Part shown: one piece after another, positions 758 to 53,433 of the stretch
How the letters are laid out: every line of letters starts with the position of its first letter
How positions within the stretch are numbered: position 1 is the first letter of the stretch
NCBI GenBank assembly: GCA_030144725.1
Contig: JASKMD010000012.1
Location: 11,958,621-12,022,620 of the forward strand
Direction: 5' to 3'
DNA length: 64,000 bases
Source of the DNA: Haematococcus lacustris
Taxonomy: Eukaryota; Chlorophyta; Chlorophyceae; Chlamydomonadales; Haematococcaceae
The notes under the pieces: model-generated
The model's input: the letters and a program-made list of their open reading frames with translations, nothing else
Told to the model about the DNA's origin: nothing
Databases searched by the model: none
Program-made: the position numbers and the translations under genes

Positions 758-777
758 CACTCGCGCCGACTAAGGCC
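758..777 (+). repeat. Left terminal inverted repeat of the 4.38-kb transposon
   Basis: CACTCGCGCCGACTAAGGCC, preceded by target-duplication copy CC (756-757). It matches the right TIR of the 15.3-kb element (23411-23430, read on the minus strand) except for one C/T difference. Confidence 0.9.
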
Positions 778-899
778 GGAAGTCGCCTACGTCATTTCTT
801 CCCGGGAGGCGTACTGCAGATAGCCCCAGGAAAGGCCGACTCATCGCCGTTGTAATCGTTGAAAAACTCAAAGTTGCTGCGATGTTATAACTATTTGAA

Positions 900-1612
900 A
901 AGTTACCTAACCCTGTACCGGGTCCTACTGACCCGTTACAGGGTCCTAGGCCACAGGGTTCTGCCGCACGGCTACAGGGTCCTGCGACACATTCTCACAG
1001 GGTTCTGCCGCACGGCTACAGGGTTTTGCGACACGTTCTCACAGGGTTTTGCCGCACGGCTACAGGGTTTTGCGACACGTTCTCACAGGGTCCTGCCGCA
1101 CGGCTACAGGGTTTTGCGACACGTTCTCACAGGGTCCTGCCGCACGGCTACAGGGTTTTGCGACACGTTCTCGCAGGGTTTTGCCGCACGGCTACAGGGT
1201 CCTGCGACACTTTCTCACAGGGTTCTGCCGCACGGCTACAGGGTTTTGCAAAACGTTCTCACAGGGTTTTGCCGCACGGCTACAGGGTCCTGCGACACTT
1301 TCTCACAGGGTTCTGCCGCACGGCTACAGGGTTTTGCGACACGTTCTCACAGGGTTTTGCCGCACGGCTACAGGGTTTTGCGACACACGTTCACACAGGG
1401 TTGTGCCGCACGGCTACAGGGTCCTGCGACACTTTCTCACAGGGTCCTGCCGCACGGCTACAGGGTTCTGCGACACATTCTCACAGGGTTCTGCCGCACG
1501 GCTACAGGGTCCTACGACATATTCCCACAGGGTCCTGCCGCACAGCTACAGGTTCCTACGACACACGTTCACAGGGTCCTGCCACACGCCTACAGGGTCC
1601 TGCCACAACGTA
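900..1612 (+). repeat. Left subterminal array, 44-bp monomer with CAGGGTYYTG decamers
   Basis: Each 44-bp monomer has two decamers (CAGGGTTTTG or CAGGGTCCTG) separated by an 11-bp CCGCACGGCTA spacer and a 13-bp CGACACGTTCTCA-type spacer. The array starts about 140 bp inside the terminal repeat. All three frames stay open because 44-bp monomers without stops shift frame from unit to unit; I do not regard the resulting ORFs as genes. By analogy with En/Spm subterminal repeats, these are likely transposase-binding sites (inference). Confidence 0.9.
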
Positions 1613-2690
1613 TGCAACGACGCCCGAACACCTTGCAACACCACAACAAACGGCATGTATTGCTGGTGCTAAGCACATGCATTGATGGAAGGTGACAACA
1701 CCACACAACAACACCACACAACATCACTACAACAACAACACAACGACTCATGCATTGCTCACCACATATGTCATGTGCACAACCACAAGGACTGGCTGCA
1801 CCTCATTGCTATGGGCTAACACCTTATCACGGGACTGCTAAGCACTTTGCCTTGCTGCCTATGCCCCATGGCACCAAATCAGGCTGGGCTAGGCTAGGCT
1901 GGGCTAGCCTGGGGTAGGCTAGGCTAGGGTAGGCTAGGGTAGGCTAGCCTAGGCAAGGCTAGCCTGGGATAGGCTAGGCTAGGCTAGGCTGGCGTAGGCT
2001 GGGTTAGGCTTGGCTCCAGGTTGCCCACTCCTGGTTGCCCGCTCTAGGCTGCCCGCTCCAGGCTGCCCGCTCCATGCTGCCCGCTCCATGCTGCCCACTC
2101 CGGGCTGCCCGCTCCAGGCTGCCCGCTCCATGCTGCTACGCCAAGGGCTGCTGGGTGCCATTGGGTGGGGGAGAGGAGAGAAGAGGGGAGGAGGGGAGGA
2201 GGGGAGGAGGGTAGGTAGGTGGCAGACTCGGAAGTGGTGGTGGTGGGCTTGGGCAGGGAAGGGGGAAGGGGGAAGGGGGCAAGGGGCAGCAGTGTGACCA
2301 TCAGACCTGCGGCAGCAAGAGACATCCTTGCATTTAGGCTTGGCATTGGGGACCACTCATGTGCAGGGACTGGCCACTTACAGTTATGCTCCATGTCACG
2401 ACGCCGGGGGAGGGTACGGGGTACGAGGAGGGTACGGTCCTTGCTGGCTCCTTGTTGGTTGCTGCTCTACCGCCATGCTTGCAATCAACCCGGCCATGCT
2501 TCACCTGCCATGCTCCAGCTGTCGACAACTGCAATCAAACATCAGCCAGCAAGCAGATGGATTAGGACATGCATGACCAGAACCCTGTGGTGTGGTGCCA
2601 GAACCCTGTGATGTGGTGCCAGGACCCTGTGGGAGTGGTGCCAGGACCCTGTGTGCCAGAACCCTGTGGGTGTGCGGCAGAACCCTGTAG
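1613..2690. other. Interior of the non-autonomous transposon; low-complexity, no gene seen
   Basis: Contents in order: an A/C-rich stretch with CAACA-type repeats (about 1620-1790); a short GGCTAGGCTA repeat field (about 1886-2010); a roughly 15-bp GCTGCCCGCTCCAGG repeat (about 2028-2140); a purine-rich GGGGAGGA tract (about 2165-2290); and about 270 bp of unremarkable sequence. The short ORFs here do not resemble any protein I recognise. The segment has no counterpart in the 15.3-kb relative, so the interior was replaced or captured. Confidence 0.6.
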
Positions 2691-2692
2691 CC

Positions 2693-3845
2693 AAACGTCG
2701 CAGGACCCTGTAGGCGTGCGGCAGAACCCTGTAGCCAAACGTCGCAGGACCCTGTAGGCGTGCGGCAGAACCCTGTAGCCAAACGTCGCAGGACCCTGTA
2801 GGCGTGCGGCAGAACCCTGTAGCCAAACGTCGCAGGACCCTGTGGGTGTGCGGCAGAACCCTGTAGCCAAACGTCGCAGGACCCTGTAGGCGTGCGGCAG
2901 AACCCTGTAGCCAAACGTCGCAGGACCCTGTAGGCGTGCGGCAGGACCCTGTAGCCAAACGTCGCAGGACCCTGTGGGTGTGCGGCAGAACCCTGTAGCC
3001 AAACGTCGCAGGACCCTGTAGGCGTGCGGCAGAACCCTGTAGCCAAACGTCGCAGGACCCTGTGGGTGTGCGGCAGAACCCTGTAGCCAAACGTCGCAGG
3101 ACCCTGTAGGCGTGCGGCAGAACCCTGTAGCCAAACGTCGCAGGACCCTGTAGGCGTGCGGCAGAACCCTGTAGCCAAACGTCGCAGGACCCTGTGGGTG
3201 TGCGGCAGAACCCTGTAGCCAAACGTCGCAGGACCCTGTAGGCGTGCGGCAGAACCCTGTAGCCAAACGTCGCAGGACCCTGTAGGCGTGCGGCAGGACC
3301 CTGTAGCCAAACGTCGCAGGACCCTGTGGGTGTGCGGCAGAACCCTGTAGCCAAACGTCGCAGGACCCTGTAGGCGTGCGGCAGAACCCTGTAGCCAAAC
3401 GTCGCAGGACCCTGTAGGCGTGCGGCAGAACCCTGTAGCCAAACGTCGCAGGACCCTGTAGGCGTGCGGCAGAACCCTGTAGCCAAACGTCGCAGGACCC
3501 TGTAGGCGTGCGGCAGAACCCTGTAGCCAAACGTCGCAGGACCCTGTGGGTGTGCGGCAGAACCCTGTAGCCAAACGTCGCAGGACCCTGTAGGCGTGCG
3601 GCAGAACCCTGTAGCCAAACGTCGCAGGACCCTGTAGGCGTGCGGCAGAACCCTGTAGCCAAACGTCGCAGGACCCTGTAGGCGTGCGGCAGAACCCTGT
3701 AGCCAAACGTCGCAGGACCCTGTAGGCGTGCGGCAGAACCCTGTAGCCAAACGTCGCAGGACCCTGCAGGCGTGCGGCAGGACCCTGTAGCCAATCGTCG
3801 CAGGACCCTGTAGGCGTGCGGCAGGACCCTGTAGACTAACGTCGC
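2693..3845 (-). repeat. Right subterminal array, highly homogeneous 44-bp monomer (about 26 copies)
   Basis: Period of exactly 44 bp (for example AAACGTCG at 2693 and 2737). Monomer: CAGGACCCTG, 11-bp spacer TAGGCGTGCGG, CAGAACCCTG, 13-bp spacer TAGCCAAACGTCG. Decamer starts alternate 21 and 23 bp apart. Orientation is opposite to the array at the left end. Long minus-strand ORFs over this region are translations of the repeat. Confidence 0.93.
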
Positions 3846-3849
3846 AGGA

Positions 3850-4612
3850 CCTTGTGTGCCAGAACCATGTGGGTGTGCAGCAGGACACAGTAGGCCAGGA
3901 CCCTGTGGTGCCAGGACCTTGTGATGTGGTGCCCGGACCCTATGGTGTGGTGCCAGGACCCTGTGTGCCAGGACCCTGTGGTGTGGTGCCAGGACCCTGT
4001 GGTGTCTGGACCCTGTGGTGTGGTGCTAGGACCCTGTAGGCCAGGACCCTGTGGTGTGGTGCCAGAACCCTGTAGGCCAAGACCTGGTGGTATGGGGCCA
4101 GGACCCTGTGGTGTGGTGCCAGAACCCTGTAGGCCAGGACCCTGTGGTGAGGTGCCAGGACCCTGTGGTGTGGTGCCAGGACCCTGTGGTGTGGTGCCAG
4201 GACCCTGTGTGCCAGGACCCTGTGGTGTGGTGCCAGGACCCTGTGGTACCAGGACCCTGTGGTGAGGTGCCAGGACCCTGTGGGCCAGGACCCTGTGGTG
4301 AGGTGCCAGGACCCTGTGGTGAGGTGCCAGGACCCTGTGGTGCCAGGACCCTGTGGTGTGGTGCCAGGACCCTGTGGGCCAGGACCCTGTGGTGAGGTGC
4401 CAGGACCCTGTGGTGCCAGGACCCTGTGGTGAGGTGCCAGGACCCTGTGGGCCAGGACCCTGTGGTGAGGTGCCAGGACCCTGTGGTGTGGTGCCAGGAC
4501 CCTGTGGTGTGGTACCAGGACCCTGTGGGCCAGGACCCTGTGGTGTGGTGCCAGGACCCTGTGAGCCAGAACCCTGTGGTGTGGTACCAGGACCCTGTGT
4601 AGAAAGACACTC
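3850..4612 (-). repeat. Continuation of right subterminal array with 21-bp and 15-bp units
   Basis: The decamer CAGGACCCTG is kept, but the spacers change to TGGTGTGGTGC or TGGTGAGGTGC (21-bp unit) and TGGGC (15-bp unit). Equivalent variant units lie next to the left 44-bp array of the 15.3-kb element (8640-9000 and 10165-10420). Confidence 0.85.
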
Positions 4613-5118
4613 ATCGTAGGACCCTGTACAGGGTCCTGGCACACATGGTCAAAAGCATCCAAACGGAGTCAACATGACCAACAACCGGGTATGTAGGAAT
4701 CCTAACAGGGTTCTATCACATAGGGATGCAAAGAATGATTATAATATCAACACTCATAGGGTACACAGGACCCTGTACAGGGTCCTACGACCATGATGAC
4801 GCTAGGAACCTGTACAGGGTCCTAGGACACGGGCCATAGCTCATTCCTTGTTGGGACTTTTTGCATGCCATCTACTAGGTTGGGCAGCTGTAACCACCCT
4901 TTACAACCTCTCATACTCACATTTCATGAAAAGTCACTTTGGTCACACGGTGCCAACTCCCTTAGCCAAAATCAGGGTCTCAGCCCCACACCTGGCCCAG
5001 CAACTCGACACCGAGTGAGAATTACACTCTGGCCCAAGAGAGTCTTGTCATCCTCTAGGTCACAGCAGCCCACATACCAAGTTTCAGACCTCAACTCTCA
5101 GGTTTTTCAAGCCAGCCA

Positions 5119-5138
5119 GGCCTTAATTTGCACGAGTG
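5119..5138 (-). repeat. Right terminal inverted repeat of the 4.38-kb transposon
   Basis: Read inward from 5138: CACTCGTGCAAATTAAGGCC; followed by the second CC target-duplication copy (5139-5140). It matches the left end of the 15.3-kb element (8107-8126) at all but one position. Confidence 0.9.
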
Positions 5139-5140
5139 CC

Positions 5141-7284: not shown

Positions 7285-8106
7285 TCACTCTGTAAGATTA
7301 AAGGCAGCGGCTGGCGCCGTGACATGAGCCTTATACAAGTTTACGCAGTCAGGGGCATTTGCTAGATTGCTGGCAGGCTCCCAGGTGTTGTCAGAGTCAT
7401 CATAACCCTTCCACTTGACGAGGTACTCCTTTGCTTTACCTGCACGCACATGCCGGTGGTTCACAATGCGTTCTACTTCATATTGTGGGGAATCATCTAA
7501 CCAGCCCAGCTCAGTGGGGGGTAGACGACCAAAGTTGCCCTCATAGGGTCTTAGTAATGACACATGGAAGACAGGATGGATCCTGGACATGGCTGGTGGC
7601 AGGGTCAGCTTTACAGCGTCTCTACCCACATGAGCCTCAATCCTGAAAGGCCCCACATACCGTGGCAGCAGCTTTCTGGCTTTGCCCACCATGTTACGCA
7701 GGTTCATGGTACTAAGCAGCACACGGTCACCCACTTGGAACATACTGTCCGCGGATTTCCTGTGTGGATTAGCATCATTTGACTGCCGACTTTGTGCCAG
7801 TTTCATACATCTCCTGGCTTCTTGAACGCCCTTTTCCCAGCCATCAGAGAAGAACTGGGCCATGGGAGGTGGCAACCGAGGTAACTCATGGGTCACCGGT
7901 GTCACTGGGGACTGTCCATAGTTAATCAGGAAAGGTGTAGACTTAATACTTTCTTGCCATGAGTTATTAATTGCAAACTCGGCAAACGAGAGGTGTTTAG
8001 GCCAGTCTCGTTGAGTGGGAGAGATATAATAAGCATTTCCTCCAACACTTTGTTGTACCGCTCAACCTGCCCATTTGACTGGGGGTGATAGCTGGAGGTG
8101 AGAGAA
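7285..8106 (-). pseudogene. Ty3/gypsy copy B pol, C-terminal half of integrase and chromodomain (minus strand)
   Basis: On the minus strand, downstream of the transposon insertion, it encodes [16 protein letters not shown] (integrase Glu region), the GPF region ([16 protein letters not shown]) and a chromodomain ([10 protein letters not shown] … [20 protein letters not shown]). It departs from copy C after NLYK (about 7327) and abuts copy A's LTR, so its 3' end is truncated or replaced. A 4-bp deletion after the codons for EEML shifts the frame (about 8030). Its upstream part lies at 23433-24238; the DNA transposon at 8107-23430 split them. Confidence 0.9.
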
Positions 8107-8126
8107 CACTCGTGCAAATAAAGGCC
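8107..8126 (+). repeat. Left terminal inverted repeat of the 15.3-kb transposon
   Basis: CACTCGTGCAAATAAAGGCC, preceded by AA target duplication (8105-8106). The following 280 bp match the right end of the 4.38-kb relative in inverted orientation. Confidence 0.9.
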
Positions 8127-8421
8127 TGGCTGGCTTGAAAAACCTGAGAGTTTAGGTCTGAAACTTGGTATGTGGGCTGCTGTGACCTAGTGGAGTACAA
8201 GACTCTCTTGGGCCAAAGTGTAATTCTCACTCGGTGTCGAGTTGCTGGGCCAGGTGTGGGGCTGTGACCCTGATTTTGGCTAAGGGAGTTGGCACCGTGT
8301 GACCAAAGTGACTTTTCATGAAATGTGAGTATGAGAGGTTGTGGAGGGTGGTTACAGCTGCCCAACCTAGTAGGTGGCATGCAAAAGGTCTCAGCCAGTG
8401 ATGAGTTATGGCCCGTGTCCT

Positions 8422-8627
8422 AGGACCCTGTACAGGGTCCTAGAGTCACCATGGTCCTAGGACCCTGTACAGGGTCCTGTGTACCCTATGAGTGTAGATG
8501 TTTTAATCATTCCTTGCATCCCTATGTGATAGAACCATTTTAGGATTCCTACATAGCCGGTGGTTGGTCCTGTTGACCCCGTTTGGATGCTTTTGACCAT
8601 GTGTGCCAGGACCCTGTACAGGGTCCT
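8422..8627. repeat. Three perfect 20-bp palindromes in the subterminal region
   Basis: AGGACCCTGTACAGGGTCCT occurs at 8422-8441, 8459-8478 and 8608-8627: two decamers head-to-head around TGTACA. The 4.38-kb element keeps two of these (4618-4637 and 4767-4786) and a degenerate third near 4804-4825. They mark the transition from unique end sequence to the arrays. Confidence 0.85.
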
Positions 8628-8639
8628 ACGATGAGTGCC

Positions 8640-10425
8640 TTTCCTCACAGGGTCCTGGTACCACACCACAGGGTTCTGGCTCACAGGGTCCTGGCACCAC
8701 ACCACAGGGTCCTGGCACCACAGGGTCCTGGTACCACACCACAGGGTCCTGCTGCACACCTACAGGGTCCTGGCTTACAGGGTCTTGGTACCACATGACA
8801 GGGTCCTGGATCCACTGGGTCCTAGTACATCACTTCAGGGTTCTGGCCTACAGGGTCCTGGCACAACACCACAGGGTCCTTGCTTACAGGGTCCTGGCAC
8901 CACACCACAGGGTCCTGCTGCACACCTACAGGGTCCTGGCCCCTCACCACAGGGTCCTGGCCCACAGGGTCATGGTCCCTCACCACAGGGTCCTGGCTCC
9001 ACACGACTACAGGGTCCTGTGACACACGACTACAGGGTTCTGCCGCACGGCTACAGGGTCCTGCGACACACGACTACAGGGTTCAGCCGCACGCCTACAG
9101 GGTCCTGCTGCATACTTCTACAGGGTTCTGCCGCACAGCTACAGGGTCCTGCTGCATACGTCTACAGGGTTCTGCCGCACGCCTACAGGGTCCTGCGACA
9201 CACGTCTACAGGGTTCTGCCGCACGCCTACAGGGTTCTGCGACCCATTTCTACAGGGTTCTGCCGCACGCCTACAGGGTTCTGCGACATGAGTCTACAGG
9301 GTTCTGCCGCATGCCTACAGGGTCCTGCAACCCACGACTACAGGGTTCTGCCGCACGCCTACAGGGTCCTGCGACACACGACTACAGGGTTCTGCCGCAC
9401 GCCTACAGGGTCCTGCGACCCATTTCTACAGGGTTTTGCCGCACGCCTACAGGGTCCTGCGACACACGACTACAGGGTTCTGCCGCACGCCTACAGGGTC
9501 CTGCGACCCATTTCTACAGGGTTTTGCCGCACGCCTACAGGGTCCTGCGACACACGACTACAGGGTTCTGCCGCTCGCCTACAGGGTCCTGCGACACACG
9601 TCTACAGGGTTCTGCCGCACGCCTACAGGGTCCTGCGACATGAGTCTACAGGGTTCTGCCGCACGGCTACAGGGTCCTGCGACATTTGTTTACAGGGTTC
9701 TGCCGCACGCCTACAGGGTCCTGGGCCACACGTCTACAGGGTTCTGCCGCACGGCTACAGGGTCCTGCTGCACACGTCTACAGGGTTCTGCCGCACGCCT
9801 ACAGGGTTCTGCGACACACGTCTACAGGGTTCTGCCGCACGGCTACAGGGTCCTGGGCCACACGTCTACAGGGTTCTGCCGCACGCCTACAGGGTCCTGC
9901 GACATGAGTCTACAGGGTTCTGCCGCACGCCTACAGGGTCCTGCGACATTTGTTTACAGGGTTCTGCCGCACGCCTACAGGGTCCTGGGCCACACGTCTA
10001 CAGGGTTCTGCCGCACGGCTACAGGGTCCTGCTGCACACGTCTACAGGGTTCTGCCGCACGCCTACAGGGTTCTGCGACACACGTCTACAGGGTTCTGCC
10101 GCACGGCTACAGGGTCCTGGGCCACACGTCTACAGGGTTCTGCCGCACGCCTACAGGGTTCTGGCCCACAGGGTTCAGGCACCACACCACAGGGTCCTGT
10201 TACCATAGGGTCCTGGCACCTCACCACAGGGTCCTGCTGCACACCTACAGGGTCCTGGCCCCTCACCCCAGGGTCCTGGCTCCACAGGGTCCTGGTCCCT
10301 CACCACAGGGTCCTGGCTCCACAGGGTCCTGGTCCCTCACCACAGGGTCCTGCTGCACACCTACAGGGTCCTGGCCCCTCACCACAGGGTCCTGGCTCCA
10401 TAGGGTCCTGGCACCACACCAGACC
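8640..10425 (+). repeat. Left subterminal array of the 15.3-kb transposon
   Basis: Outer part (8640-9000) and inner edge (10165-10425) have 15-21-bp units such as CAGGGTCCTGGCACCACACCA. The middle (about 9000-10160) has the 44-bp monomer CAGGGTTCTG, CCGCACGCCTA, CAGGGTCCTG, CGACACACGTCTA. Within it a segment of roughly 260 bp is repeated almost exactly (compare about 9640-9890 with 9900-10150), a higher-order unit. Direction is opposite to the array at the right end. Confidence 0.9.
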
Positions 10426-10475
10426 CTCTGCTGTAGCCCGACCCCAGCCCATGCTGTCAATGCATTGTCAATCGT

Positions 10476-13400
10476 TCAAATACGCTGATCAGGCCTGTAT
10501 GGCTCTACGATTCTGACCCACTGGCCTGCCATGCCGCGCCTGTTCCAGTCTGCCATCTTGGGCCCAATGCCCTCATCCTGGATGGGCTGAAACAACCCAT
10601 GGTACAAGTTCCCCAGCTCAGAGGTGTTCATGGTGGTGTTGTCGGCTACCGTGTCAGGCCGGCCAAAGCCATACAGCCTGGCGCAGCACGAGCCAGCCAC
10701 CCCCACGTTGCCAGCATGTACTGTGTTGCCTCGGAACAACACCAGCTGCCCAGCCTTCACCAGGACCTCTGTGCCCAGTTGATGTGGCAAGGTCATGGCC
10801 AGGGCATCCATGTCCTCCACTTCCACCACTTGCTTTTTGCCATCAGCCGTCCGCCAGCAATAGGCTGCAGCCAACTGGGACAGTTTGTGGCTGCCCATGT
10901 AGGCAACCAGAGGGAAGTCCTGGAGAGCTAGCAGGAACACCAGGCCGTCATCCATCCCTGGGCCAACAGGGAGGAAGTCGGTGTGGGGAGCCTGGGCCTG
11001 AGCCAGCTGCTGGGCCAGTGTAGTCACCATGTTCCCATTCCTGTTCAGGCGACGCTGCCAGGTGGGGTCAGTGATGATGGTAGCTAGGGCGTTGAGGGGG
11101 CGGCCCAGCAGCTGCCTCAGCACCGGCTGCAGGAGAGTGAGGTACTGGGCCAACACCTCCTTGGCCTCATCCACCTGCAAACACACCCAGTGTGCTGTCT
11201 ATTGTGCTCTATGCAGCCCTGACTCTAGGTAAGTTAGGAAATGCCTCAATGCCGCAATGGCTATGTACTACTGCTGTGGCTTGTGTCATCTGTTGCTCGC
11301 CTTAATCTATCAATCTTCTCACCTGCTTCTTCTTCTCTGCTGACAGATTGCTGTACACCGCCGCGTTATAATTGTCAGACAACAGCTGTAGGGTTGTGTC
11401 TAGGTCGCCACTGCTGTTCTTGTCTGACTTGGCCAACACCACCTGCACCCTCTGGCCAGTGCCATACTGTGTCTTACTGTTGGCATTGACTGAGCTGAAC
11501 ACCATGTGGTTAAAGACCCTGGTGATCAAGATGCTGGCCGCAACCACCGCTGCCCTATCTATGGCTAGCTGGGGCAGCTGGAAGATGGTCAGGCCATGAG
11601 CTAGAGCTGCTCGGCGACACTGCTCTAGCTCATGAGGCTGGTAGACCTCCCCTGTGTATGGCAGCAAGGTGGGCAGCTGATACACCATTCCCTGCGTGTA
11701 AGGTAGCAATGCACGACATGCTCACAAGCATCCCGTCACTATCGATTCATATCAGCTAGTTATGCCCTCGTACCTGTGTATTCTTGGGGAACCGCACTGC
11801 TCCTCCATGCAGCAGGGTGCCTCCTGTGCTTGCCTGCAAACACAATCCACACAAATCCTACTGAGCCACAGCTGGAGTCGGTGAAACCCTGCACTAGGTT
11901 AGTGAAGCCCTGCACTAGGTTATTGAAACCTTGTGCTAGGTCAGCGTAACAGTGCACACTGTTTAAACCCGTTGTAGGCTATTTGTAGCTGCTCACCTGC
12001 TGACCTGACTGGCCACTTCCAGTCAAGGCTGTGTTTGCCAACACGTGCAGCCGCCTTCTTCCCATCAGCTCATCCTACATTCAGTGTGGTCGTTTACAAG
12101 TTGGTAATGTTGAAATGCCTCATTGGCAGCTTGTGTCCCACCTCCACTCTGTTCACTGAGTCCTGCACGGTGTCCACCTTTTGAATCAGGTACTGTAGGA
12201 GGGCCTGCAATGGCAAATGAAGCAATGGGAATCTGAGCCACTGTCACAATGCACCATGATGCTGTCTTGCTCCTCTTGCTGTTATGTTGTGATTCTACCT
12301 GATCCTCGGCAGGCCTTGGCCTCTTGGATGATGAGGGACCAGCACCGTCCCCTCCACGCTGCTGCTGCTCCTCTTCAGTCACCTGTCGCTGGTCCTGCTG
12401 CTGGTGCTGGTGCTGCTGCCCACCTGCTGCTGTGCCTGCCGCCCGGGTGCTGGTGCCCACCTGTGCCCACTGCCCTCTGCGTGTCTGGCGGTGGGGCTGC
12501 ACTGGCGGATGGTGCTGATGCTGCCCTCCTGCTGCTGGTGTTGGCATCAGGGGAATGGAGGGGGTAAGGCTGAGTTGCACACGTGCTGCTGGTGCACGCC
12601 GCAGGACAGGTGCGAGGGCAGGGCTCCGCTGCCCACCTGCTGGCAGTGCAGTACCTAGGCCTGTGGTGGGGGCCTTCAATCCAGCTACACCCGCTGTTGG
12701 GGTGGCGGGGGGCTGCCGCACACCTGCTGCTGAGGCTGGCTGTTGGATAGGGGACGGGGCTGGGTGCTGCTGCACACCTGCTGCTGGGGCTGGCAGTGGG
12801 GCAGGGGTGGGGGCAGGGGCCTGCTGCACACCTGCTGCTGGGGCTGGCAGTGGGGCAGGGGTGGGGGCAGGGGCCTGCTGCACACCTGCTGCTGGGGCTG
12901 GCAGTGGGGCAGGGGTGGGGGCAGGGGCCTGCTGCACACCTTCTGCTGGGGCTGGCTGTGGGGCAGGGGTGGGGGCAGGGGCCTGCTGCACACCTGCTGC
13001 TGGGGCTGGCTGTGGGGCAGGGGTGGGGGCAGGGGCCTGCTGCACACATGCTGCTGGGGCTGGCTGTGGGGCAGGGGTGGGGGCAGGGGCCTGCTGCACA
13101 CCTGCTGCTGGGGCTGGCTGTGGGGCAGGGGAGGGGGCAGGAGAGGGAAGGGGAGGGGGCTCTGTTCTCAACACAAATTCTGCCAAAGTAGCACACTCCT
13201 TTCTACCTTGCACTTCACATAGGTACACATAATCTGTGTCACCCTGACTCTTCATCTCCGCATCTGCACATGATAGTTAACAGAGTCATGAATGTATGGA
13301 TACCTTGACGTCCTACTGGCAACTAGTCAACCAACTAACTCATCACCTCGCTTGTATACGCCCCACAAGCTAGCGAACGGCTTTAACCCCTCAGGGGGAC

Positions 13401-16400
13401 TGGCTTCTTGTATGCCCATGAAATGGTTGTTGAAGAAGGCGAAGTACCTGTCCCACTTGAGGCGCCTTGTGGAAGAGGGTTGGGGGTAATTCTCGGCAAC
13501 GAATTTCCAGGACCTGTATTGCAAACAAGTCACACACTTGGGCACGTCCTCATGAGCATTGGGGTGCATGGGCTCTCACCTGTCCACAATCGCCTCTGTG
13601 TTACTCTGCGTCTCCATATCACAGGGCACAACAGTTTTGGCCACGCAGAAACCACAGCACACATCACGCCATGGGTCATTCATGCTGGCCAGCCCGGTCG
13701 CAGCCTACATGCAAGTAGCCACCGTGGATGAGTGCAGTGCTACCGATGGACAGTGTTAGGCTTGATTATGCGTCTACCTGAGTGCGGGGGCCGCATCGCG
13801 CCAGAAAGGTCATCATGTCAACGGCGACTCCTTCCAGTGCATTATTGCCTGCTGCTGCTGCTGCCATTGTGCGTAGCCTTGATAGTGTGCGCGTGGCCGC
13901 AATGGACTTTCGAATGTCTAGTCAAATGGCATGGGATCAACAATACTGCAAACCACGGGCATGGTGATATGCACTGCTTGCCTTATCCCAGTGTTCAGTA
14001 TTGTCGCGTGTTATGACTCGTTCAGGTATTTGTGAACACGTTCTAGTGCGGTTTACACGGTGTCACTGGAACCCCGCACACAGTCAGCGAAACGCTGCAC
14101 TAGGTCCACAAAACACACTGCAAGGTTTGGATCGACTAGTCCATGAACCTGTAGCATGTCATGAACTTCTAGCATCTCATTCATCAAACAAGTCACTGCG
14201 TGCTGCTGCTGCAGCCACTGCTGCATCTACTCCTGCTGCTGCTGCTGCCACTGCCTCTGCTACTGCCCCTGCCTCTGCCTCTGCCTCTGCCCTTGCTGTG
14301 CCGGGTGCCACTGGCCCTGCCCCTGCCTCTGCCCCTGCTGTGGCGGGTGCCACAGGCCCAGCCCCTGCCACAGCCCCTGCTGCCCCTGCTGCCCCTGCCA
14401 CTGCTCCTGCTGCCCCCACAGCCCCTGCAGCCACCACTGCGCCACCACTGCGTCTACCCCTTGCCTTTGCCCCTGCCACAGCCCCTGCCTTTGCCCCTGC
14501 CTTTGCCCCTGCCTTTGCCCCTGCCTTTGCCCCTATCCCTGCCCCTACCCCTGCCCCTGCCCCTACCCCTGCCCCTGCCCCTACCCCTGCCCGTGCCCCT
14601 GCCCCTGCTGCCCCTGCTGCTGCCCCTGCCGCCCCTGCTGCTGCCTCTGCCGCCACTGCTGCCCCTGCCGCCAAGCCTGTCATTAGCGCAGCGGCGAGCT
14701 CCTGTACCTCTGCCCCTGCTTCTCGGCCTGCAGGCCTCTTCTTGGCACCCCCGCCTCCCAGAGCCTTACGCTTGCCTGCAGCTGGTGTGGTGTGAGCTGC
14801 CTTGCCAGCTGCCTTGCCCCCTCGGCGAGGGGGTGAAGCTGGGCCTGCCTGCTGCCCTGCACTGCTGGCATCCTGCAGCTCCAGCAACAGCTTCGCCTTG
14901 TACTCCACAAGCCGGGTCTGGGTCGTCAACTGCACACAACAAGGTGGCAATATGAAGTTTGGAAGGTAAGGCATGGTATGTGGTATGGTTGGGCATGGTA
15001 GGGTATGCTCGTAAGATGTCATCTACTTGCCTTCCACCAGGATTGGTCCTGGGTGCATGCCTCCAACAGCAGCGTCTTGGCCTGCGCCTCCGCCGCCACC
15101 TGCCAGCATCAAGCAAAGCACACATACTCGGCCAACATGTAAAATCACATACCTCTACCAGCATTGTAACGAGATACTCACCGGGTCTGCGTTGCTGCCG
15201 CCGGGGATAGACCTTGCTAGTTCTAGGGCCACCTCGTCAAACTGGTCATAGAATGTCTGGGACATTGCTTTCCAGGCCTTGCCAGCTTCAGGGTGCTTGC
15301 CTTCTGGCGTCTGGTCTGGTTTCTTCCAGTTCTCTGCGATCAGGGGTGCACGCAATGTCATGGATTAGCTCCACAGGGTCCTGGTGACAGCTACAGGGTC
15401 CTGGCACCTCACCACAGGGTCCTGGTGACAGCTACAGGGTCCTGGCACCTCACCACAGGGTCCTGGTGACAGCTACAGGGTCCTGGCACCTCGCCACAGG
15501 GTCCTGGTGACAGCTACAGGGTCCTGGCACCACACCACAGGGTCCTGGCACCTCACCACAGGGTCCTGGCACCTCACCACAGGGTCCTGGCCTACAGGGT
15601 CCTGGCATCTCACCACAGGGTTCTGGCTTCACTCACCTGAGGCTGCTTTCAGCTGAGCAGCTAAGGGCAGGTATGGCTCCATGTCAGTGGGCACAACATC
15701 GTCATTGCTGAACGGGGTGCCTGCAGCCACCGCTGCTGCCTTGGCTTCCAACAACCGGCAGCCAAACTTCGTCTCCCACCCCTCATCTTTCTTCTGGATC
15801 TCTGCTGTCTTACGAGGTGTCCGCGGCACACGGGCCAGCTGCTTAGGAGTGGTCGGACGTCTGACCCAATCGTATGACCTACACGTTCAAGGGTACCAGT
15901 CCCATGATGAGGACCTGTACTAATGACACAGTGGGTTGCATGCTATGGGTGCATGATGGGTGGATGCATGCTATGGGTTGCATGCTATGGGTGCATGATG
16001 GTTGGATGCATGCAACCCACTTTTTGAATGCCGCCAGCAACATCCAGTAGCTCAGCAAAGACAGGTAGGCTGGGTTGGCCTTGGTAAATTCCTTCCATAC
16101 GAGGCCGATGATTGCCCGCATGGGGACATTCCACTTGGCCTCCACCGAGTTGCTGCCCAGTTTGGGGTATTCCCCTGGTACACAGCCGGGGATGGTGGCA
16201 CAACACACACAAAGACTGTTCACTAACATTCACATCAGACAGCAAATTAGGTTGGTTACATGGCTACACCATTCATTGCACAATCACCTGGCCCACAGAA
16301 CGCGGGCACCACATCCGGATGTATTCGGGGGCGAACTTGCCCCAGAGACTGACGGCATCTTGCTGCAAGGATGCATTGGGTATAGATAACCAAGGTGACA

Positions 16401-17093
16401 TGGGCAGTAATGGTATGAGGCTATGGTCAATTGTTGCGTGAACACTACACCAACCTCATATTTGCCCAACACACTGAAGGGCTTGTCGGCGTTAGGTGCA
16501 TGATGCTTGTACTGAAATCACACGGGAACGATGGGTCATGGTTAGCAAAGGACATTGAGGCACATGCAACGTGACCAGTGCAAATCAGGCAGCATAGGCA
16601 CGCAACACCATGCTCACCTGCGCCAGGATGATCTTACTGAACTCATCGGGGACCTGCTTCCCTCCTTTGCGCGCCCGTTTCTTGGCTGGCCTCTGCTTCT
16701 GCTTCTCTTTCTCCTCCTCCTCCTCCTCCCCCTCCATCTCCCCCTCCTCCTCCTCCCCCTCCATCTCCTCCTCCTCCTCCTCCCCCTCATCCTCCTCGCC
16801 CTCACCCTCACCCGCCTCCCCCTCCCCCTCATCCTCCAGCGCCTCCTCCTCTCCCACCCCCTCCCCTTCATCACCCCTTGGTCGCTGGGCCAAAGGCAAT
16901 TCATCGGACTCGTGCCCAGAGTCAGCTGTGCGAGGGGCTGCAGCCTTAATCTGCAGCAACGATAGTTCATGGAGTTAATGCACGCATGAAGGTGCCTGGC
17001 ACGGTAAGGCATCGCGGCAGGCAGGCGGTATTGGTACGGGAATTACTATACCTTCTTGGCGGTGGGCTTCTTGGTGAGCGTGTTGCGGTACAT
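10476..17093 (-). CDS. Transposon gene 2: multi-exon protein with Pro/Ala-rich middle and candidate 2OG-Fe(II) dioxygenase C-terminus
   Basis: Minus-strand spliced gene. The start ATG is at 17091-17093; exon 1 (17052-17093) encodes a short basic leader. Exon 2 (16618-16950) is extremely Glu-rich with a KKRARKGGK nuclear-signal-like patch. Boundaries also supported: 15637 and 15182-15333 (introns 15334-15636 and below 15182), 11774/11691 (intron 11692-11773), 11323/11174 (intron 11175-11322); the last exon is 10476-11174 with stop TGA at 10476-10478. Between them lie a Gly/Ala-rich exon (about 14177-14930) with GKRKALGGGGAKKRP and a 54-bp Pro/Ala/Gln minisatellite (about 12735-13140). The last exon has HTD (codons around 10977-10985), GQLVLFRGNTVHAG (distal His about 10716-10718) and Arg 13 residues later, the HxD…H…R layout of double-stranded beta-helix dioxygenases. 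The middle exons are only partly resolved. Likely an accessory transposon protein; I do not recognise the whole. Confidence 0.68.
12735..13140 (-). repeat. Coding minisatellite, 54-bp unit (18-residue Pro/Ala/Gln repeat), about 7 copies
   Basis: The minus strand encodes AGVQQAPAPTPAPQPAPA-type units in frame; variation is mostly Gln/Leu at one position. It lies inside an exon of transposon gene 2 and would form an extended, disordered linker. Confidence 0.8.
15334..15636 (-). repeat. Intron of gene 2 containing a decamer array
   Basis: Donor CAG|GTGAGTGAAG and acceptor GATCGCAG| (minus strand) frame a 303-bp intron. From about 15371 to 15626 it is filled with CAGGGTCCTGGTGACAGCTA and CAGGGTCCTGGCACCTCACC units, the same decamer as at the transposon ends. 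Splicing keeps the frame (Ala-Ser-Glu-Asn-Trp across the junction). Confidence 0.75.
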
Positions 17094-17546
17094 TGTAAAG
17101 GATGCTGTTGCGGGTTAGCAAGACGGCCACAACACGATGTAGCGGTACTTACTCACAAAATTATCGTCCTCAGTGAACCAAAAGTCACTTTGTCGGCCAG
17201 CAAGCGACGCCGGGTGGGTACACAGAGAGCAGGCCGCGATGGCCAACGAGGGCCGCGATGGCCGGACACAATGCGATCATTTACTCTCCAGGCTTCCCAA
17301 GACACAGGCAATCATGGTGAAGACAGCCTTTCAATGCCTAGTGTGCGGAGAATCAGGCGGCATAAAAGGAATGCGCACATCCCGCCCCGTCGTGCGGTGA
17401 AGTGGCTCAGTTGGTTAAGGGTGATTCCTACAACTGAGAGGTCGTGGGTTCGACTCCACTACGACGATAAAGTACCTCTGGTGGGATAGTGTCGGCGCCC
17501 CATGCCGGAGTCCTCCCTTAATGCACGCTGGTGTAAACCGGAGTAG

Positions 17547-17598
<52 letters not shown>

Positions 17599-17855
17599 TT
17601 TTTTTTAGGAATGCGCACTCACTGTTCCAAGCGCCATCACCAGTTCGTGGGGGCTGAAGGCGCGAAGGCTTGGGCGGAGAGGCAGGCTAAGGCGACAGCT
17701 CGGTCCCCAGACGCACAGCAACACACATCGCAAGAGTCGGCAGTAAGATGTCGCTTGCATTTAGTTAGTACGCGCTGACGTACATGTACGCAAGAGGCAG
17801 CTAATGCGTGCACCTCATCGCATGTTGTCCGCATGTTGTGACGACATGTGTGCAG
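17094..17855. promoter_or_regulatory. Divergent intergenic region between the two transposon genes
   Basis: Gene 2 starts leftward at 17093 and the transposase gene reads rightward from about 17856, so promoters for both should lie here. I see no clear TATA box. A SINE (17379-17606) occupies the centre. The first transposase exon with its ATG may also be here, because the frame at 17856 has a preceding TAA (17802-17804), no early ATG, and a good splice acceptor (TGTGTGCAG) just before it. Confidence 0.5.
17379..17606 (+). mobile_element. tRNA-derived SINE with (TTTC)n tail, 12-bp target duplication
   Basis: Flanked by direct repeats AGGAATGCGCAC at 17367-17378 and 17607-17618. The head is tRNA-like: A-box-like GTGGCTCAGTTGGTTAAGG (about 17400-17418) and B-box GGTTCGACTCC (about 17447-17457), with a GTGG/CCAC T-stem. 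A body of roughly 90 bp follows, then a (TTTC)n stretch (about 17548-17600) ending in T's. T-arm pairing is imperfect, so this is a SINE head and not a working tRNA gene. It would have been made by LINE machinery in trans. Confidence 0.85.
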
Positions 17856-20800
17856 GGAAGCTGTGGTGATGGAGGAGGGGTGGATGAGGACGGGCAAGGA
17901 GATGGAGGAGGGGTGGCTGAGGACTGGCAAGGAGGCAGGGATCAGGCAGCCCCAGCGGGACAAGAGGGTGGCAGGATTACAGAGGGTGCATGGAGAGGAC
18001 AGGGAGGAGGGGACGAACAGCGTGGGAGGGGAGAGGAGGACAACAGGGGGGGACAGCGCGGAGACAGGGAAGAGGGGGGTGTAGGAGGAAGGGGAGGAGT
18101 CGACGGAGGAGGGGACGGAGGTGATAGTGATGACAGTGGGAGTGAAGACAGTGATGAGGAAGGGGAAGGGTATCCAGCAGGTCCCGGGGGTCCAGGAGGT
18201 CCAGCAGGTCCAGGAGGTCCAGGAGGTCCAGGAGGTCCAGGAGCTCCGGGGGGTCCAGAGGGGGATGAAGGAGGGGGGGATGGCGCCAGGGCACGTCGAA
18301 GCAAGGTGTACAAGCTGGATGCCAACCTTCAACAACCCGTGTTCAGGTATTTAGAAATAACAGATAATAGTATCACAAGCAGTGAGTTGTTCAGTATAGT
18401 TGTTGCTTGTCTTTGTGCATGCCATTACAGGAATTGCCCCTTGACAGGCAAGGACTTGATGGACGAGCTGAGCAGGCTGTTGGACATGAAGCTGACCAAA
18501 GAGCAGATGAAGGGGGTGTTGAAGCTGATCCGTAGGCTACTTGCGAACCAGCCTGATCTCAACCTCATCACCAGCTTCTACCAGCTGATGAGTTTGCAGG
18601 GCGTCCAGCACGCAAATGAGTACGAGGTGCATGTGTGCAACGCGGGCAAGGACAACAAGGCCAACAACAAGTACTGCCCAGGCTTCGCCTACCCGAAGAT
18701 ACGACGGTGGGGTCAGGGGAAAGGGTGTGGATTAGGCAATGCATGCATGGCGCATTACACATGGTGTTTGTTGGGGTCAAGGTTGCCTACATGTGCATGC
18801 ATGCATAGGTCTGAGTGGCTCGCCCACCAGAATGACAAGTGCGACTACTGTGAGACACCTCGCTTCCATGTGAACCAGAAAAAAGGTGAAACCAATCTAC
18901 ATGGGCATGGTAAATCTCTAATGACACTTGTAGAGGTATACATGTGTTGTAGGCTGTCCCTTGCTTGGTTCCAGGGAGCCCACAGGAGATCACCTTGAGG
19001 CCTCGGTGGAGCATGTCTCTGTTCGGCTGGAACACAGTGGTGAAGAACATCATGGAGCGGAAGGACGTGATGACCTGGTTCAGGCGAGCACGGGGCGTGG
19101 ACCCACCTGCTGGCTCTTTCCGGGCAAGTGAGTAGGCATGGGTTGACCTTGGCATAGAATTCACAGCATAGCCAGGTGATTAGTACAGTGACATGCACCA
19201 TGCCATGATGATGTTGTTTGACAGGCCCTGCATGGCGAGTGATGCAGCCCAAGCTACCAGAGGTTGTGGCCACCTCCCCCAACACAGCCCACTTCATGAT
19301 TGGGGTTGACTGGATGACACTGGGCAAGAACGGCACCTGGTCAGTGGGTGTGATTCTGTTGAGGCTGCTGGATGTGCCGGCTGAGGTGTGCGGCAAGCGG
19401 GCGTGCAGCTCAGTGTTGGCCGTCATCAACGGAGGAAAGCACCAGTCTCACCTGACAGGCTACATGAAAGCCATCTGCCAGGAAGTCAGCAAGCACATCG
19501 AGGGCCCGGGTGACCTGGGTGTGATAGTGGAGCCACACCCAGGCCCAGGTGTTGATGGTGTGGCTCCACCCCGTGTTGAGCCTGTCCGCATCCATGGAGT
19601 CCCAGTGGTATCAATCGCTGATACCCCAGCCACGTGAGTGAGACAAAGGCCAACAGCTTGCACTTACACATGGTTCCACCACCTCCCAGTCCAGTCTATC
19701 CCTATACAACTTGTACCCTGCCATGTACCATCCACAAACATATTACAACCATTGAGGAATGAGTTGCGTGATTGTGTGCATGTAGAGCCACTTTGACCAG
19801 GGCCATGGGCCACAGCGCCCTGAAGATGTGCTACAACTGCAACATCAGCAAGCCCCCCAACCCACCTACAGAGAAGGCGCCCCTTGGCTACGACGCGCCT
19901 ACGCTGCAGACCCTACCAGGCTCCAACCGGGAGGTATGGAACACTTGACACACACATCAGCATGTGCTATTGAAATCAGACACGAGGATCCCAAGGCACA
20001 CACCGTCCTTGCTTGCTGTGGCGGTCTGCAGGAGTATGTGCTCATCTATGACGTGCGCATGAAGTTCACCCACGAGCAGATCATGGACCGAGGCGCCCCC
20101 TTCATCCATGGGTGGTCTCAAGGCGACCCTAGGGTGGTGGGCTGCCACGCCCAGCCCCTCCTGCCCATGCTGCTGCAACACCTGGACGCACGGCTCGCCC
20201 ACCTGGTGCCTGTGTACCACAGCTTCATGTATGGCTTGCTCAAGCACCAGCTGGAGTGGTTTATGAGTGCAGATGGCCTTCACATTGACGTGCGGCGTGA
20301 GATAGTGAAGCGTGGAGCAGCCATTCAATCCCCATCTGACTTGGGACGGGACCTGGGAGACCTTGCCAACCGCACGTAAGCCATAAGCATGTTGTGCAGT
20401 ATGTCATGATCAAATCACAACAGAATAACAAGGATGATGACAATGCAAGGTGCATGTCATGACACGCTTAGATTGCACTGGTGCTGCAATGCTCATGTCA
20501 TCATGCAGTGGATGGCGCATGGAGGACTACAAGCACTGGTATGTGCACTTCTCACCCATCGTGTTGCGGGGCAACCTTTTGCCAGAGCCCTACCGTGGGT
20601 TGTGGACAGCCTTGGAGGGCGCTATGCTGCACTACTTGACACCAGGTAATTTGCATACCAACATTTACAGGCACGGTCCCACTGCATGATGACTAACTCA
20701 TACCTAACTTAGTATATTAGTCTGCCCAATTCAGGCTCGGAGAACAGCGCCACACCTGAGGGGATGGCGGCAGGCTATGCACATCTGAAGACCTATGCAG

Positions 20801-22191
20801 CCAGGTTGGAGCGCTGCCGCCGTGATCCTCTGCTTCCAGCAGCGCATGGAGACAACGAGGGCAAGCTGTCTGTGCCTACTGACCAAGTCTGCCCTAACCT
20901 CCACACAACGGCCTGCAGGTGAGAGGTTTAGCAGAAGCATGCAGGCCAACCTTACCCATCAACAATGCACGCATCTGCAGGCACACCATGCTGAGCATGT
21001 CATCATGGCTGTGGTGTGCACAGGCTGTACATGCAAGAGAGCAATGTGGGCAGGACATACCTGTTTGGCGAGCTCTGGATCGAGCGTGACCTGCATGACT
21101 TGAAGTCCATCACCACCAGCGGCATTCCTGGAGCCCAGCTGGATGCCCACATTGCCATGCGGGTGGCCGGGCATAACGCCAGCAAGAGGCTGCTAGACCG
21201 GGCTGAGCCTGAGGCACAGCAGGACTACAAGGCCCGCCTGAAGGACGAGCTGACACAGGACGGGCAGCAGGCCCTGCTGCTGGGAGCGGGCAGTGCAGAG
21301 TGCCCACTGCAGAACAGCCCGGGTGCCATGATGAGGGGCTGCATGAAGGCAGTCCAGGATCTGCAGAAAAGCGACGAGGCCACCCCATGGCGCCCATGGC
21401 ACGTCAAGCAGGTGTTCGGTGAGGCCCTAAATGCAAGGGAGGCAGTGGAGGAGGCCAAGGAGGCTCCACGGGTCGCTGCCCCCCCGTATCCAGTGCGGTA
21501 CTACCAGCGAGCAGACTGCAATGGCACCATTGTGTTCAGCAGTGTGTACAAACGCACCTCAACCCGCAACAACACCTGGGTCAGCATCCCGTTCAGGCTC
21601 GATGACGACAAGTGGGCCATTTGGGCTGGCCATGTGCAGTTCTGGGTTCGTTTGGAGCACCCCAAGCTGCCTGGGGTGTTCCTACGCCTAGCAGTCAGCC
21701 GCATCTACTTGACCCGCCCTACATCCCACCCCTCATGCTTGGCAGCAACTGGTCAGGCAGTTCCCAGGCCACAGCAAGCAGCAGGAGCTGGAGCAGCGGC
21801 TAACGCAGGAGGTCAGGGGGGGGGAGAGCCACAAGGAGACGGAGATGCAGAAGGGGCTGCTGGGCCCAGCGGGATAGGTGGGCCACAGCAGCACAGGTCA
21901 GCAAAGCGTGGCGTGGAGCAGGCAGCAGCGGAGGCAGCCAGCACAGGTGGCACCAGGAAGTCCCAGAGGCTTGCAGCCGGTGCATCACAGCGGCAGGCTG
22001 ACCCCCTTCCACCTGTTGAGGACCGCCCGCAGCAGTCAGCCATGGGCAGCATGCACCAGGGCTATGGAGATCAGCATTGGTATATGTTTGATGCCACCAA
22101 GATCTTCACAGTCTTTGTGACCAGCTTTGAGGACGGGGAGGGCTACGGCCGTATGTTCTTTGTGCCAGCGCACAGCCTCAGCCGCAGCTAG
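17856..22191 (+). CDS. CACTA/EnSpm (TNP2-like) transposase, spliced
   Basis: Exons supported by splice sites and frame: 17856-18346, 18431-18706, 18809-18885, 18975-19127, 19225-19633, 19786-19933, 20032-20375, 20509-20645, 20735-20918, 21024-22191 (stop TAG), about 1,130 residues. A 5' exon with the ATG is probably missing from this list. N-terminus: Gly/Glu-rich, acidic DDSGSEDSDEEGEG, then a collagen-like GPGGP stretch. Then CDYC (about 18840-18851) with following FH, a core with IGVDWM (Asp 19308-19310) and NGGKHQSHLTGYMKAICQEV, a second CYNC knuckle (about 19829), and the TNP2-like block FSPIVLRGNLLPEPYR (about 20548-20595), comparable to the LLPIALRGLLP region of plant TNP2. The last exon has a Trp-rich globular stretch (WAIWAGHVQFWVRL) and a Gln/Gly-rich tail. 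Role: cutting and joining the element's ends. The family call is from motif memory, and exact catalytic residues are not assigned. Confidence 0.78.
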
Positions 22192-22364
22192 TCATACATC
22201 AATCACGGTGCTGCACCTAGTAAGAACGGATGACAGAATAGATGCTCGTAATGCTGTTCCTGTTCTGTGGTTGCCGGGGCTGCGTCACTGTCATGTTGCT
22301 GCTCGGCCACTGTCACACCATCAGCAACTAGTGATAGAATGCCTTAGCTACCTAGCGGTGTGAC

Positions 22365-23275
22365 CTGTAGGACCCTGTAAGCGTGCGGCAGAACCCTGTA
22401 GAAGTGTGTCGCAGGACCCTGTAGGCGTGCGGCAGAACCCTGTAGACGTGTGGCGCAGAACCCTGTAGGCGTGCGGCAGAACCCTGTAGACGAGTGTGGC
22501 AGGACCCTGTAGGCGTGCGGCAGAACCCTGTAGACGTATGCAGCAGGACCCTGCAGCCGTGCGGCAGAACCCTGTAGACTCATGTCGCAGGACCCTGTAG
22601 GCCTGCGGCAGAACCCTGTAAACAAATGTCGCAGGACCCTGTAGGCGAGCGGCAGAACCCTGTAGTCGTGTGGCGCAGGACCCTGTAGGCGTGCGGCAGA
22701 ACCCTGTAGTCGTGTGTCGCAGGACCCTGTAGCCGTGCGGCAGAACCCTGTAGACAAACGTCGCAGAACCCTGTAGGCGTGCGGCAGAACCCTGTAGACG
22801 TGTGTCGCAGAACCCTGTAGCCGTGCGGCAGAACCCTGTAGACAAACGTCGCAGAACCCTGTAGGCGTGCGGCAGAACCCTGTAGACGTGTGGCCCAGGA
22901 CCCTGTAGGCGTGCGGCAGAACCCTGTAGACGTGTGGCGCAGAACCCTGTGGCCGTGCGGCAGAACCCTGTAGACGTGAGTCGCAGGACCCTGTAGACGT
23001 GCGGCAGAACCCTGTAGACGCGGGTAACAGGACCCTGTAGGCGTGCGGCAGAACCCTGTAGACGCGGGTAACAGGACCCTGTAGGCGTGCGGCAGAACCC
23101 TGTAGGCGTGTGGCCCAGGACCCTGTAGGCGTGCGGCAGAACCCTGTAGACACGTGTCGCAGGACCCTGTAGCCGTGCGGCAGAACCCTGTAGACACGTG
23201 ACGCAGAACCCTGTAGCCGTGCGGCAGAACCCTGTGGCCCAGGACCCTGTACAGGGTCGGCAGAACCCTGTACAG
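22365..23275 (-). repeat. Right subterminal array of the 15.3-kb transposon
   Basis: 44-bp monomers CAGGACCCTG, TAGGCGTGCGG, CAGAACCCTG, TAGACGTGTGTCG, in opposite orientation to the left array and more divergent between units. The transposase stop is only about 175 bp upstream; the array ends about 155 bp inside the terminal repeat. Confidence 0.9.
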
Positions 23276-23410
23276 GTTCGGGCGATTTTTCAAATAGTTA
23301 TAACATCGCAGCAACTTGGAGTTTTTCAATGATTACAACGGCGATGAGTCGGCCTTTCCTGGGGCTATCTGCAGTATGCCTCCCGGGAAGAAATGACGTA
23401 GGCGACTTCC

Positions 23411-23430
23411 GGCCTTAATCGGCGCGAGTG
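23411..23430 (-). repeat. Right terminal inverted repeat of the 15.3-kb transposon
   Basis: Read inward: CACTCGCGCCGATTAAGGCC; followed by AA target duplication (23431-23432) and then Ty3 integrase sequence. Confidence 0.9.
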
Positions 23431-23432
23431 AA

Positions 23433-28205: not shown

Positions 28206-28206
28206 G

Positions 28207-36956: not shown

Positions 36957-37928
36957 TGCTGGGTCTGGGGCTGGGTCTGGGGCTGGGTCTGGGGCTGGGG
37001 CTGGGTCTGGGTCTGGGTCTGGGGCTGGGTCTGGGGCTGGGGCTGGGGCTAGGGCTGGGGCTGGGGCTGGGGCTGGGGCTGGGGCTGGGGCTGGGGCTGG
37101 GGCTGGGGCTGGGGCTGGGGCTGGGGCTGGGGCTGGGGCTGGGGCTGGGGCTGGGGCTGGGGCTGGGGCTGGGGCTGGGGCTGGGGCTGGGGCTGGGGCT
37201 GGGGCTGGGGCTGGGGCTGGGGCTGGGGCTGGGGCTGGGGCTGGGGCTGGGGCTGGGGCTGGGGCTGGGGCTGGGGCTGGGGCTGGGGCTGGGGCTGGGG
37301 CTGGGGCTGGGGCTGGGGCTGGGGCTGGGGCTGGGGCTGGGGCTGGGGCTGGGGCTGGGGCTGGGGCTGGGGCTGGGGCTGGGGCTGGGGCTGGGGCTGG
37401 GGCTGGGGCTGGGGCTGGGGCTGGGGCTGGGGCTGGGGCTGGGGCTGGGGCTGGGGCTGGGGCTGGGGCTGGGGCTGGGGCTGGGGCTGGGGCTGGGGCT
37501 GGGGCTGGGGCTGGGGCTGGGGCTGGGGCTGGGGCTGGGGCTGGGGCTGGGGCTGGGGCTGGGGCTGGGGCTGGGGCTGGGGCTGGGGCTGGGGCTGGGG
37601 CTGGGGCTGGGGCTGGGGCTGGGGCTGGGGCTGGGGCTGGGGCTGGGGCTGGGGCTGGGGCTGGGGCTGGGGCTGGGGCTGGGGCTGGGGCTGGGGCTGG
37701 GGCTGGGGCTGGGGCTGGGGCTGGGGCTGGGGCTGGGGCTGGGGCTGGGGCTGGGGCTGGGGCTGGGGCTGGGGCTGGGGCTGGGGCTGGGGCTGGGGCT
37801 GGGGCTGGGGCTGGGGCTGGGGCTGGGGCTGGGGCTGGGGCTGGGGCTGGGGCTGGGGCTGGGGCTGGGGCTGGGGCTGGGGCTGGGGCTGGGGCTGGGG
37901 CTGGGCTGGGCTGGGGCTAGGGCTGGGG
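36957..37928. repeat. (GGGGCT)n hexanucleotide array, about 1 kb
   Basis: Left edge mixed GGGTCT/GGGGCT, then near-perfect GGGGCT with one GGGGCTAGGGCT variant near 37049 and short units near 37902. Same position relative to LINE ORF1 as the array at 28207-29443. Confidence 0.95.
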
Positions 37929-37930
37929 CC

Positions 37931-45352: not shown

Positions 45353-45420
45353 CCATGGAAACAGCACCGACTCCATGGAAACAGCACCGACAGCATGGAC
45401 TCCATGGAAACAGCACCGAC
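45350..45420 (+). repeat. Short tandem repeat CTCCATGGAAACAGCACCGA at element junction
   Basis: Three copies (one separated by CAGCATGGA) lie exactly where L1 sequence ends and the next LINE begins. Probably 5' repeats of the incoming element or junction filler. Confidence 0.7.
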
Positions 45421-53430: not shown

Positions 53431-53433
53431 AAA

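Follow-up and report, generated by a model that had tools for sequence, protein, structure and literature searches.

Dioxygenases dependent on Fe(II) and 2-oxoglutarate (2OG) are already known from fungal transposons, as EnSpm, Plavaka, ESTA and KDZ elements with TET/JBP dioxygenase genes have been described; in the accessible parts of that report, an escape of the transposons from methylation-based silencing is proposed and is not experimentally validated (Kojima 2025, PMC12730594). Plant CACTA elements, according to the accessible text of PMC4158355, start with CACTA and generate 3-bp duplications. Here we analyze a 64,000-nucleotide stretch of the green alga Haematococcus lacustris (GenBank assembly GCA_030144725.1, contig JASKMD010000012.1, positions 11,958,621 to 12,022,620 of the forward strand), referred to as the window, in which a CACTA-like transposon at 8107-23430 encodes a transposase candidate (gene A), a putative PhyH-type dioxygenase (gene B) and a third protein (gene C). 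We consider it quite probable that this element belongs to a large and fairly young family of cut-and-paste transposons, most likely of the CACTA/CMCT type, and that gene B most likely counters silencing or restraint of the element. Among the papers listed by a literature search, which mostly covered papers outside subscription, none dealt with an algal or PhyH-carrying DNA transposon.

The Haematococcus element resembles the fungal TET/JBP transposons in having a 2OG/Fe(II) dioxygenase gene beside the transposase gene inside a DNA transposon, and the Puccinia EnSpm families in its CAC..GTG ends, but it differs in the dioxygenase family (PhyH, PF05721, rather than TET/JBP), in the host (a green alga rather than fungi) and, relative to the fungal EnSpm families, in a duplication of 2 bp instead of 3 bp, as far as the accessible parts of PMC12730594 describe them. 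Short CACT-type inverted ends, a multi-exon transposase and an additional gene are shared with En/Spm and plant CACTA elements. En/Spm also has subterminal repeats, as does the Haematococcus element. Unlike plant CACTA elements, the latter begins with CACTC, has mostly 2-bp duplications, does not match PF02992 and has a dioxygenase as its accessory gene. The predicted fold of gene B is like that of the fungal natural-product Fe(II)/2OG dioxygenases OkaE, AsqJ, FtmOx1 and AusE, which we take to be PhyH-type, but gene B shares 7-13% identity among the fold matches listed; these fungal enzymes are metabolic and are not known to be transposon-borne. Another green-algal 2OG dioxygenase, CMD1 of Chlamydomonas, itself acts on DNA and is a TET homologue (PMC12730594, in its accessible parts); it was not among the fold matches listed for gene B, which argues neither for nor against kinship.

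The C-terminal part of gene B matched the PhyH profile with an expectation value (E) of 7.7e-6 (26.8 bits; cut-off 22). In an alignment of 18 proteins, the columns of the HxD motif, the distal H and the 2OG-binding R were invariant (H235, D237, H324 and R337), and among 55 homologues of gene B, several of which are fragments, HTD was present in 52 and HAG in 53. The predicted model of gene B matched the oxygenase fold, a double-stranded beta-helix; the fold matches listed also include prolyl hydroxylases and plant 2OG oxidases, so that they do not point to PhyH in particular. We infer that gene B encodes an enzymatically active PhyH-type Fe(II)/2OG dioxygenase. No TET/JBP model was found among the Pfam matches of gene B or among the fold matches listed, an outcome that does not by itself exclude kinship. 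All 55 homologues are named Haematococcus lacustris, and the N-terminal start of two protein models (P0015 and P0028) resembles that of the modelled gene B. A previous sequence-only reading of the window had rightly found no resemblance to TnpA in the second gene and had overlooked its dioxygenase domain; where it described two divergent genes, three were found, the minus-strand half consisting of gene C (17093-14177) and gene B (13867-10476). A second dioxygenase subfamily, comprising the kin of P0044, keeps identical ligands, and one of its members, P0051, has translations of the subterminal repeat on either side. In the gene model P0052, this second subfamily is joined with a domain of the hAT dimerisation type (E 2e-12), which reflects either an erroneous model or a chimeric element. 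Three further gene models (P0034, P0041 and P0075) contain retroelement-type Pfam domains plus dioxygenase or transposase, as would be expected if elements of this family often inserted in such genes, as they did in the window.

The ends of the element were defined by inverted repeats that are identical at 16 of 20 positions when the left end is compared with the reverse complement of the right end, and that are flanked by AA on both sides. The termini read CACTCG..CGAGTG and not CACTA..TAGTG as in plant CACTA elements. In an empty-site test, approximately 200 bp of either flank were joined with 0, 2 or 3 bp dropped, and the longest open frame was counted. With one 2-bp copy dropped, this frame reached 128 codons at the site of the element (105 with 0 bp and 104 with 3 bp dropped) and 138 codons at that of a second family member at 758-5138 (83 and 82 codons, respectively), which has the opposite orientation and CC flanks. 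Because the host frame reopens at both sites, the 2-bp size of the duplication is supported independently of the end matching. The sequence-only reading had proposed the ends, the rejoined frame and the second element, all of which were borne out; the identity of both interrupted host genes as Ty3-like pol genes was read from motifs by eye. No coding gene was noticed in the second element, where no search aimed at genes was made. Subterminal arrays, a criterion for CACTA/EnSpm elements, are present at both ends, with 74 copies of the ACAGGGTYCTG motif in 8107-10440, 40 copies in 22300-23430 and none in 23431-64000.

A search of the 308-Mb Haematococcus lacustris assembly with a 321-bp left-end query yielded 1,203 candidates. 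Forty of these places, the query's own included, were scored and all 40 matched at 96-100%; given the 1,203 candidates, the copy number of the family is a lower bound. Twenty stretches of 10 kb (two of which overlap) were taken from left ends: eight contained the right end, three were completed by extension, and in the remaining nine, four of which contain N, no right end was read. Both ends were read in 13 copies, a subset of the family that includes the two window elements. Twelve of them are consistent with a 2-bp duplication (AA, CC, CA, GT, GT, TG, CT, AC, TG, TG, TA and CA), for which the chance would be about 4e-14, assuming 1/16 per copy; the AC-flanked copy (L039), in which the final two bases are altered, is counted among the 12. 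Two oppositely oriented copies on contig C147 (L035 and L036), separated by about 14 kb, have an identical outer flank, as either a duplication in inverted form or a misassembly would produce. Three coding copies were completed, namely E136 (14,777 bp), E175 (17,659 bp) and E127 (12,301 bp).

Gene B accompanies gene A in all four coding copies examined. E136 and E127 each have an open gene A and keep the ten splice junctions proposed by the earlier reading; in E175, exon 2 together with a portion of exon 3 is unmappable (N), and exons 5-11 are stop-free. Genes B and C are open in E136 and E175, gene C with one GC-AG intron. In E127, the first exons of gene B are missing and its exons 5-9 are stop-free, and gene C is gone except for remnants of the first exons. 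The ratio of nonsynonymous to synonymous substitution rates (dN/dS), calculated by the Nei-Gojobori method in pairs of complete copies, was 0.23-0.30 for gene A, 0.26-0.28 for the dioxygenase part of gene B, 0.43-0.55 for the rest of gene B and 0.58-0.68 for gene C. All 12 tests, with three pairs for each of these four regions, showed a deficit of nonsynonymous changes (P from 2e-16 to 0.02), for which gene C gave the weakest support. Judged by these ratios, the catalytic domain of gene B is constrained about as strictly as the transposase candidate.

The core of gene A has the layout D..D (104 residues apart)..CxxC..HxxxC..E, in which the catalytic D and E were picked, and the motif columns matched, by eye. 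Among six relatives, the CxxC starts 19 residues past the second D in the five where both were found, and the HxxxC is present in all six, its H 25 residues ahead of the E in GELWxER. Of the gene A homologues, 22 of 23 from a sequence search and 28 of 29 from a profile search are named Haematococcus lacustris; the sole other is P0073, an 'lgn' protein. These searches require shared 5-residue words and scored a capped set of 8,000 (gene B), 7,474 (gene A) and 7,999 (gene A profile) candidates, so that distant kin could be missed. In the window copy, exon 1 is interrupted by an insertion resembling a short interspersed nuclear element (SINE), which is flanked by 12-bp repeats (AGGAATGCGCAC, at 17367-17378 and 17607-17618), stops the frame of exon 1 and is missing from E136, E175 and E127; from the following ATG, gene A is open to its end. 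By eye the insertion has a tRNA-like head, and ARAGORN called no tRNA in 17379-17606. In the three other full copies, the frame upstream of the originally modelled start of exon 1 is open and encodes a C2H2-like zinc finger, for which the Pfam match was weak (E 0.0021, below cut-off). With this interruption in exon 1 of gene A, the window copy is probably non-autonomous in its present state, and its earlier description as complete-looking holds for the ends and not for gene A.

Gene C matched no Pfam family significantly. A GT donor at exon 8 was rejected as it breaks the frame; with the GC donor, three copies have an open frame. The donor of the fourth intron, GTTCTG, is weak and was selected to preserve the frame. 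The intron at 15334-15636 (303 bp) consists mostly of the subterminal motif of the element and holds the 13 inner motif copies.

We envision that gene A would bind the ACAGGGTYCTG arrays adjoining the ends, cut at CACTCG/CGAGTG and insert the element with a 2-bp duplication. Coding copies bring gene B, and usually gene C, along with gene A, and gene B would oxidise either a protein or a mark on DNA, RNA or chromatin that otherwise silences or restrains the element. By analogy with the fungal elements, anti-silencing is our best guess for its role.

A number of results weigh against this reading and are considered here together with the alternatives. PF02992 (TNP2/Transposase_21) matched neither gene A nor seven relatives at the sensitivity of a sequence-to-hidden Markov model comparison, and it had no match genome-wide, where the control genomes were silent too. 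None of the Pfam transposase families matched gene A, its profile gave 0 matches against Protein Data Bank (PDB) sequences, and an AlphaFold2 model made with 10 relatives was not used (predicted local distance difference test, pLDDT, 31.9; predicted template modelling score, pTM, 0.26). One of the 13 copies, L029, has TTA/TTA flanks, that is, a 3-bp duplication, so that the 2-bp size claimed by the sequence-only reading describes most copies and not all. An alignment of gene A to TNP2, seen by eye, is a lead only. Gene A might therefore derive from a different DDE superfamily, its CACT ends being convergent, as the unmatched PF02992 in every test, an HxxxC in place of the expected H(3-4)H of CMCT transposases, and duplications of 2 rather than 3 bp would suggest; the subterminal repeats argue against this origin, as does the lack of a match of gene A or its relatives to any different Pfam transposase family, and we regard it as unlikely. 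Because the layout of gene A resembles the CMCT motif set out in the accessible parts of PMC12730594, with C replacing one H, we call gene A CACTA-like and leave formal CACTA membership aside. The former assignment to CACTA/EnSpm with a TNP2-like transposase is supported by the CACTA-like ends with subterminal repeats and 2-bp duplications, the 11 exons and the D..D..CxxC..E layout, and is not supported by PF02992 or by the CACTA..TAGTG ends and 3-bp duplication of the plant definition.

For gene B, the predicted model is weak (mean pLDDT 51.6), and Foldseek gave it low TM-scores (0.24-0.33, by query length). A search of PDB sequences with the gene B profile, allowing E up to 10, gave four matches (E 0.098-6.4), none of them convincing; DhiD (E 0.38), by its title an a-KG dependent oxygenase, aligns at the distal-H motif, and the other three look unrelated. 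In the window-E127 pair, dN/dS of gene B exons 5-9 was 0.37, from 6.5 synonymous and 7.5 nonsynonymous changes. CpG decay at the left ends did not support anti-silencing (0 transitions in 216 CpG observations, about 1.6 expected), gene A showed a mild excess of CpG transitions only (0.0084 vs 0.0048 per site), and CpG observed/expected ratios were 0.25 for the majority sequence of the left ends, 0.40 for the gene region and 0.51 for the remainder of the window; the papers listed on DNA methylation in Haematococcus yielded nothing usable. The closest folds, those of natural-product enzymes, act on small molecules, as PhyH enzymes mostly do, and capture of host genes by transposons is frequent, all of which would suit a passenger gene, namely a PhyH gene of host metabolism acquired once and without a role in the life of the element. 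Such a passenger would not be expected to be constrained like the transposase between complete copies, to be present in every coding copy, or to have a second subfamily that keeps its ligands and includes a member flanked by subterminal-repeat translations, and we judge it unlikely. Gene B also occupies the place of the second En/Spm gene and has long low-complexity stretches, as might a TnpA-like accessory protein that uses the dioxygenase fold for DNA binding without catalysis; given the invariant metal and 2OG ligands in 18 relatives and the frequency of HTD and HAG among the homologues, fragments included, this appears very improbable. Returning to an anti-silencing gene B, a more specific version holds that a green-algal CACTA-like transposon, in an event independent of the TET/JBP recruitment in fungi, acquired a PhyH-branch oxygenase that alters or erases a DNA, RNA or chromatin silencing mark, a proposal that we advance tentatively and with more doubt than confidence.

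Table 1. Features of the transposon and its surroundings (window positions; aa, amino acids).
Feature	Position	Strand	Description
Whole element	8107..23430		15,324 bp; ends, 2-bp duplication, empty-site frame, three further full-length copies with identical ends
Target duplication AA, left copy	8105..8106
Target duplication AA, right copy	23431..23432
Left inverted end	8107..8126	+	CACTCGTGCAAATAAAGGCC
Right inverted end	23411..23430	-	CACTCGCGCCGATTAAGGCC; pairs with left end at 16/20
Left subterminal repeat array	8646..10421	+	ACAGGGTYCTG; 44-bp and other periods
Right subterminal repeat array	22369..23235	-	CAGRACCCTGT; 44-bp period
Gene A, transposase candidate	17239..22191	+	11 exons, ten introns; splice sites and frame kept in E136, E127
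Gene A exon 1	from 17239	+	ATG at 17239, open until SINE-like insertion interrupts
Gene A open exons from next ATG	17611-17742, 17856-18346, 18431-18706, 18809-18885, 18975-19127, 19225-19633, 19786-19933, 20032-20375, 20509-20645, 20735-20918, 21024-22191	+
SINE-like insertion	17379..17606	+	228 bp; TTTC tail; in gene A exon 1, within C2H2-like zinc finger
Gene B	10476..13867	-	871 aa; putative C-terminal PhyH-type Fe(II)/2OG dioxygenase
Gene B exons	13778-13867, 13580-13704, 13347-13513, 12299-13263, 12142-12204, 11997-12074, 11774-11833, 11323-11691, 10476-11174	-
PhyH (PF05721) match in gene B	10707..11165	-	Coordinates derived from query residues 193-345
Gene C	14177..17093	-	620 aa; acidic N-terminus, conserved middle, alanine-rich C-terminus
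Gene C exons	17052-17093, 16618-16950, 16455-16511, 16302-16362, 16021-16174, 15637-15878, 15182-15333, 15031-15099 (GC donor), 14177-14929	-
Second family member	758..5138	-	4,381 bp; orientation opposite to 8107-23430; CC/CC flanks (756-757, 5139-5140)

Elsewhere in the window, GCTGGG hexamer arrays were found at 28206-29443 and 36958-37929 (approximately 206 and 162 copies, 98-99% matching). Long open frames at 45233-53576, one of which contains a YADD stretch, may belong to a retrotransposon without long terminal repeats (non-LTR), as judged from this motif.

So far, descriptions of transposons that carry 2OG dioxygenases have concerned fungi and TET/JBP. If another dioxygenase family was recruited in an alga and kept under selection, oxygenase recruitment would be a repeated transposon strategy, and if its product acts on a silencing mark, transposons would have a new form of counter-defence and PhyH enzymes a new class of substrates. 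The many copies of the family offer a natural experiment for finding the substrate, and the family gives access to a fairly young transposon in an industrially used alga.
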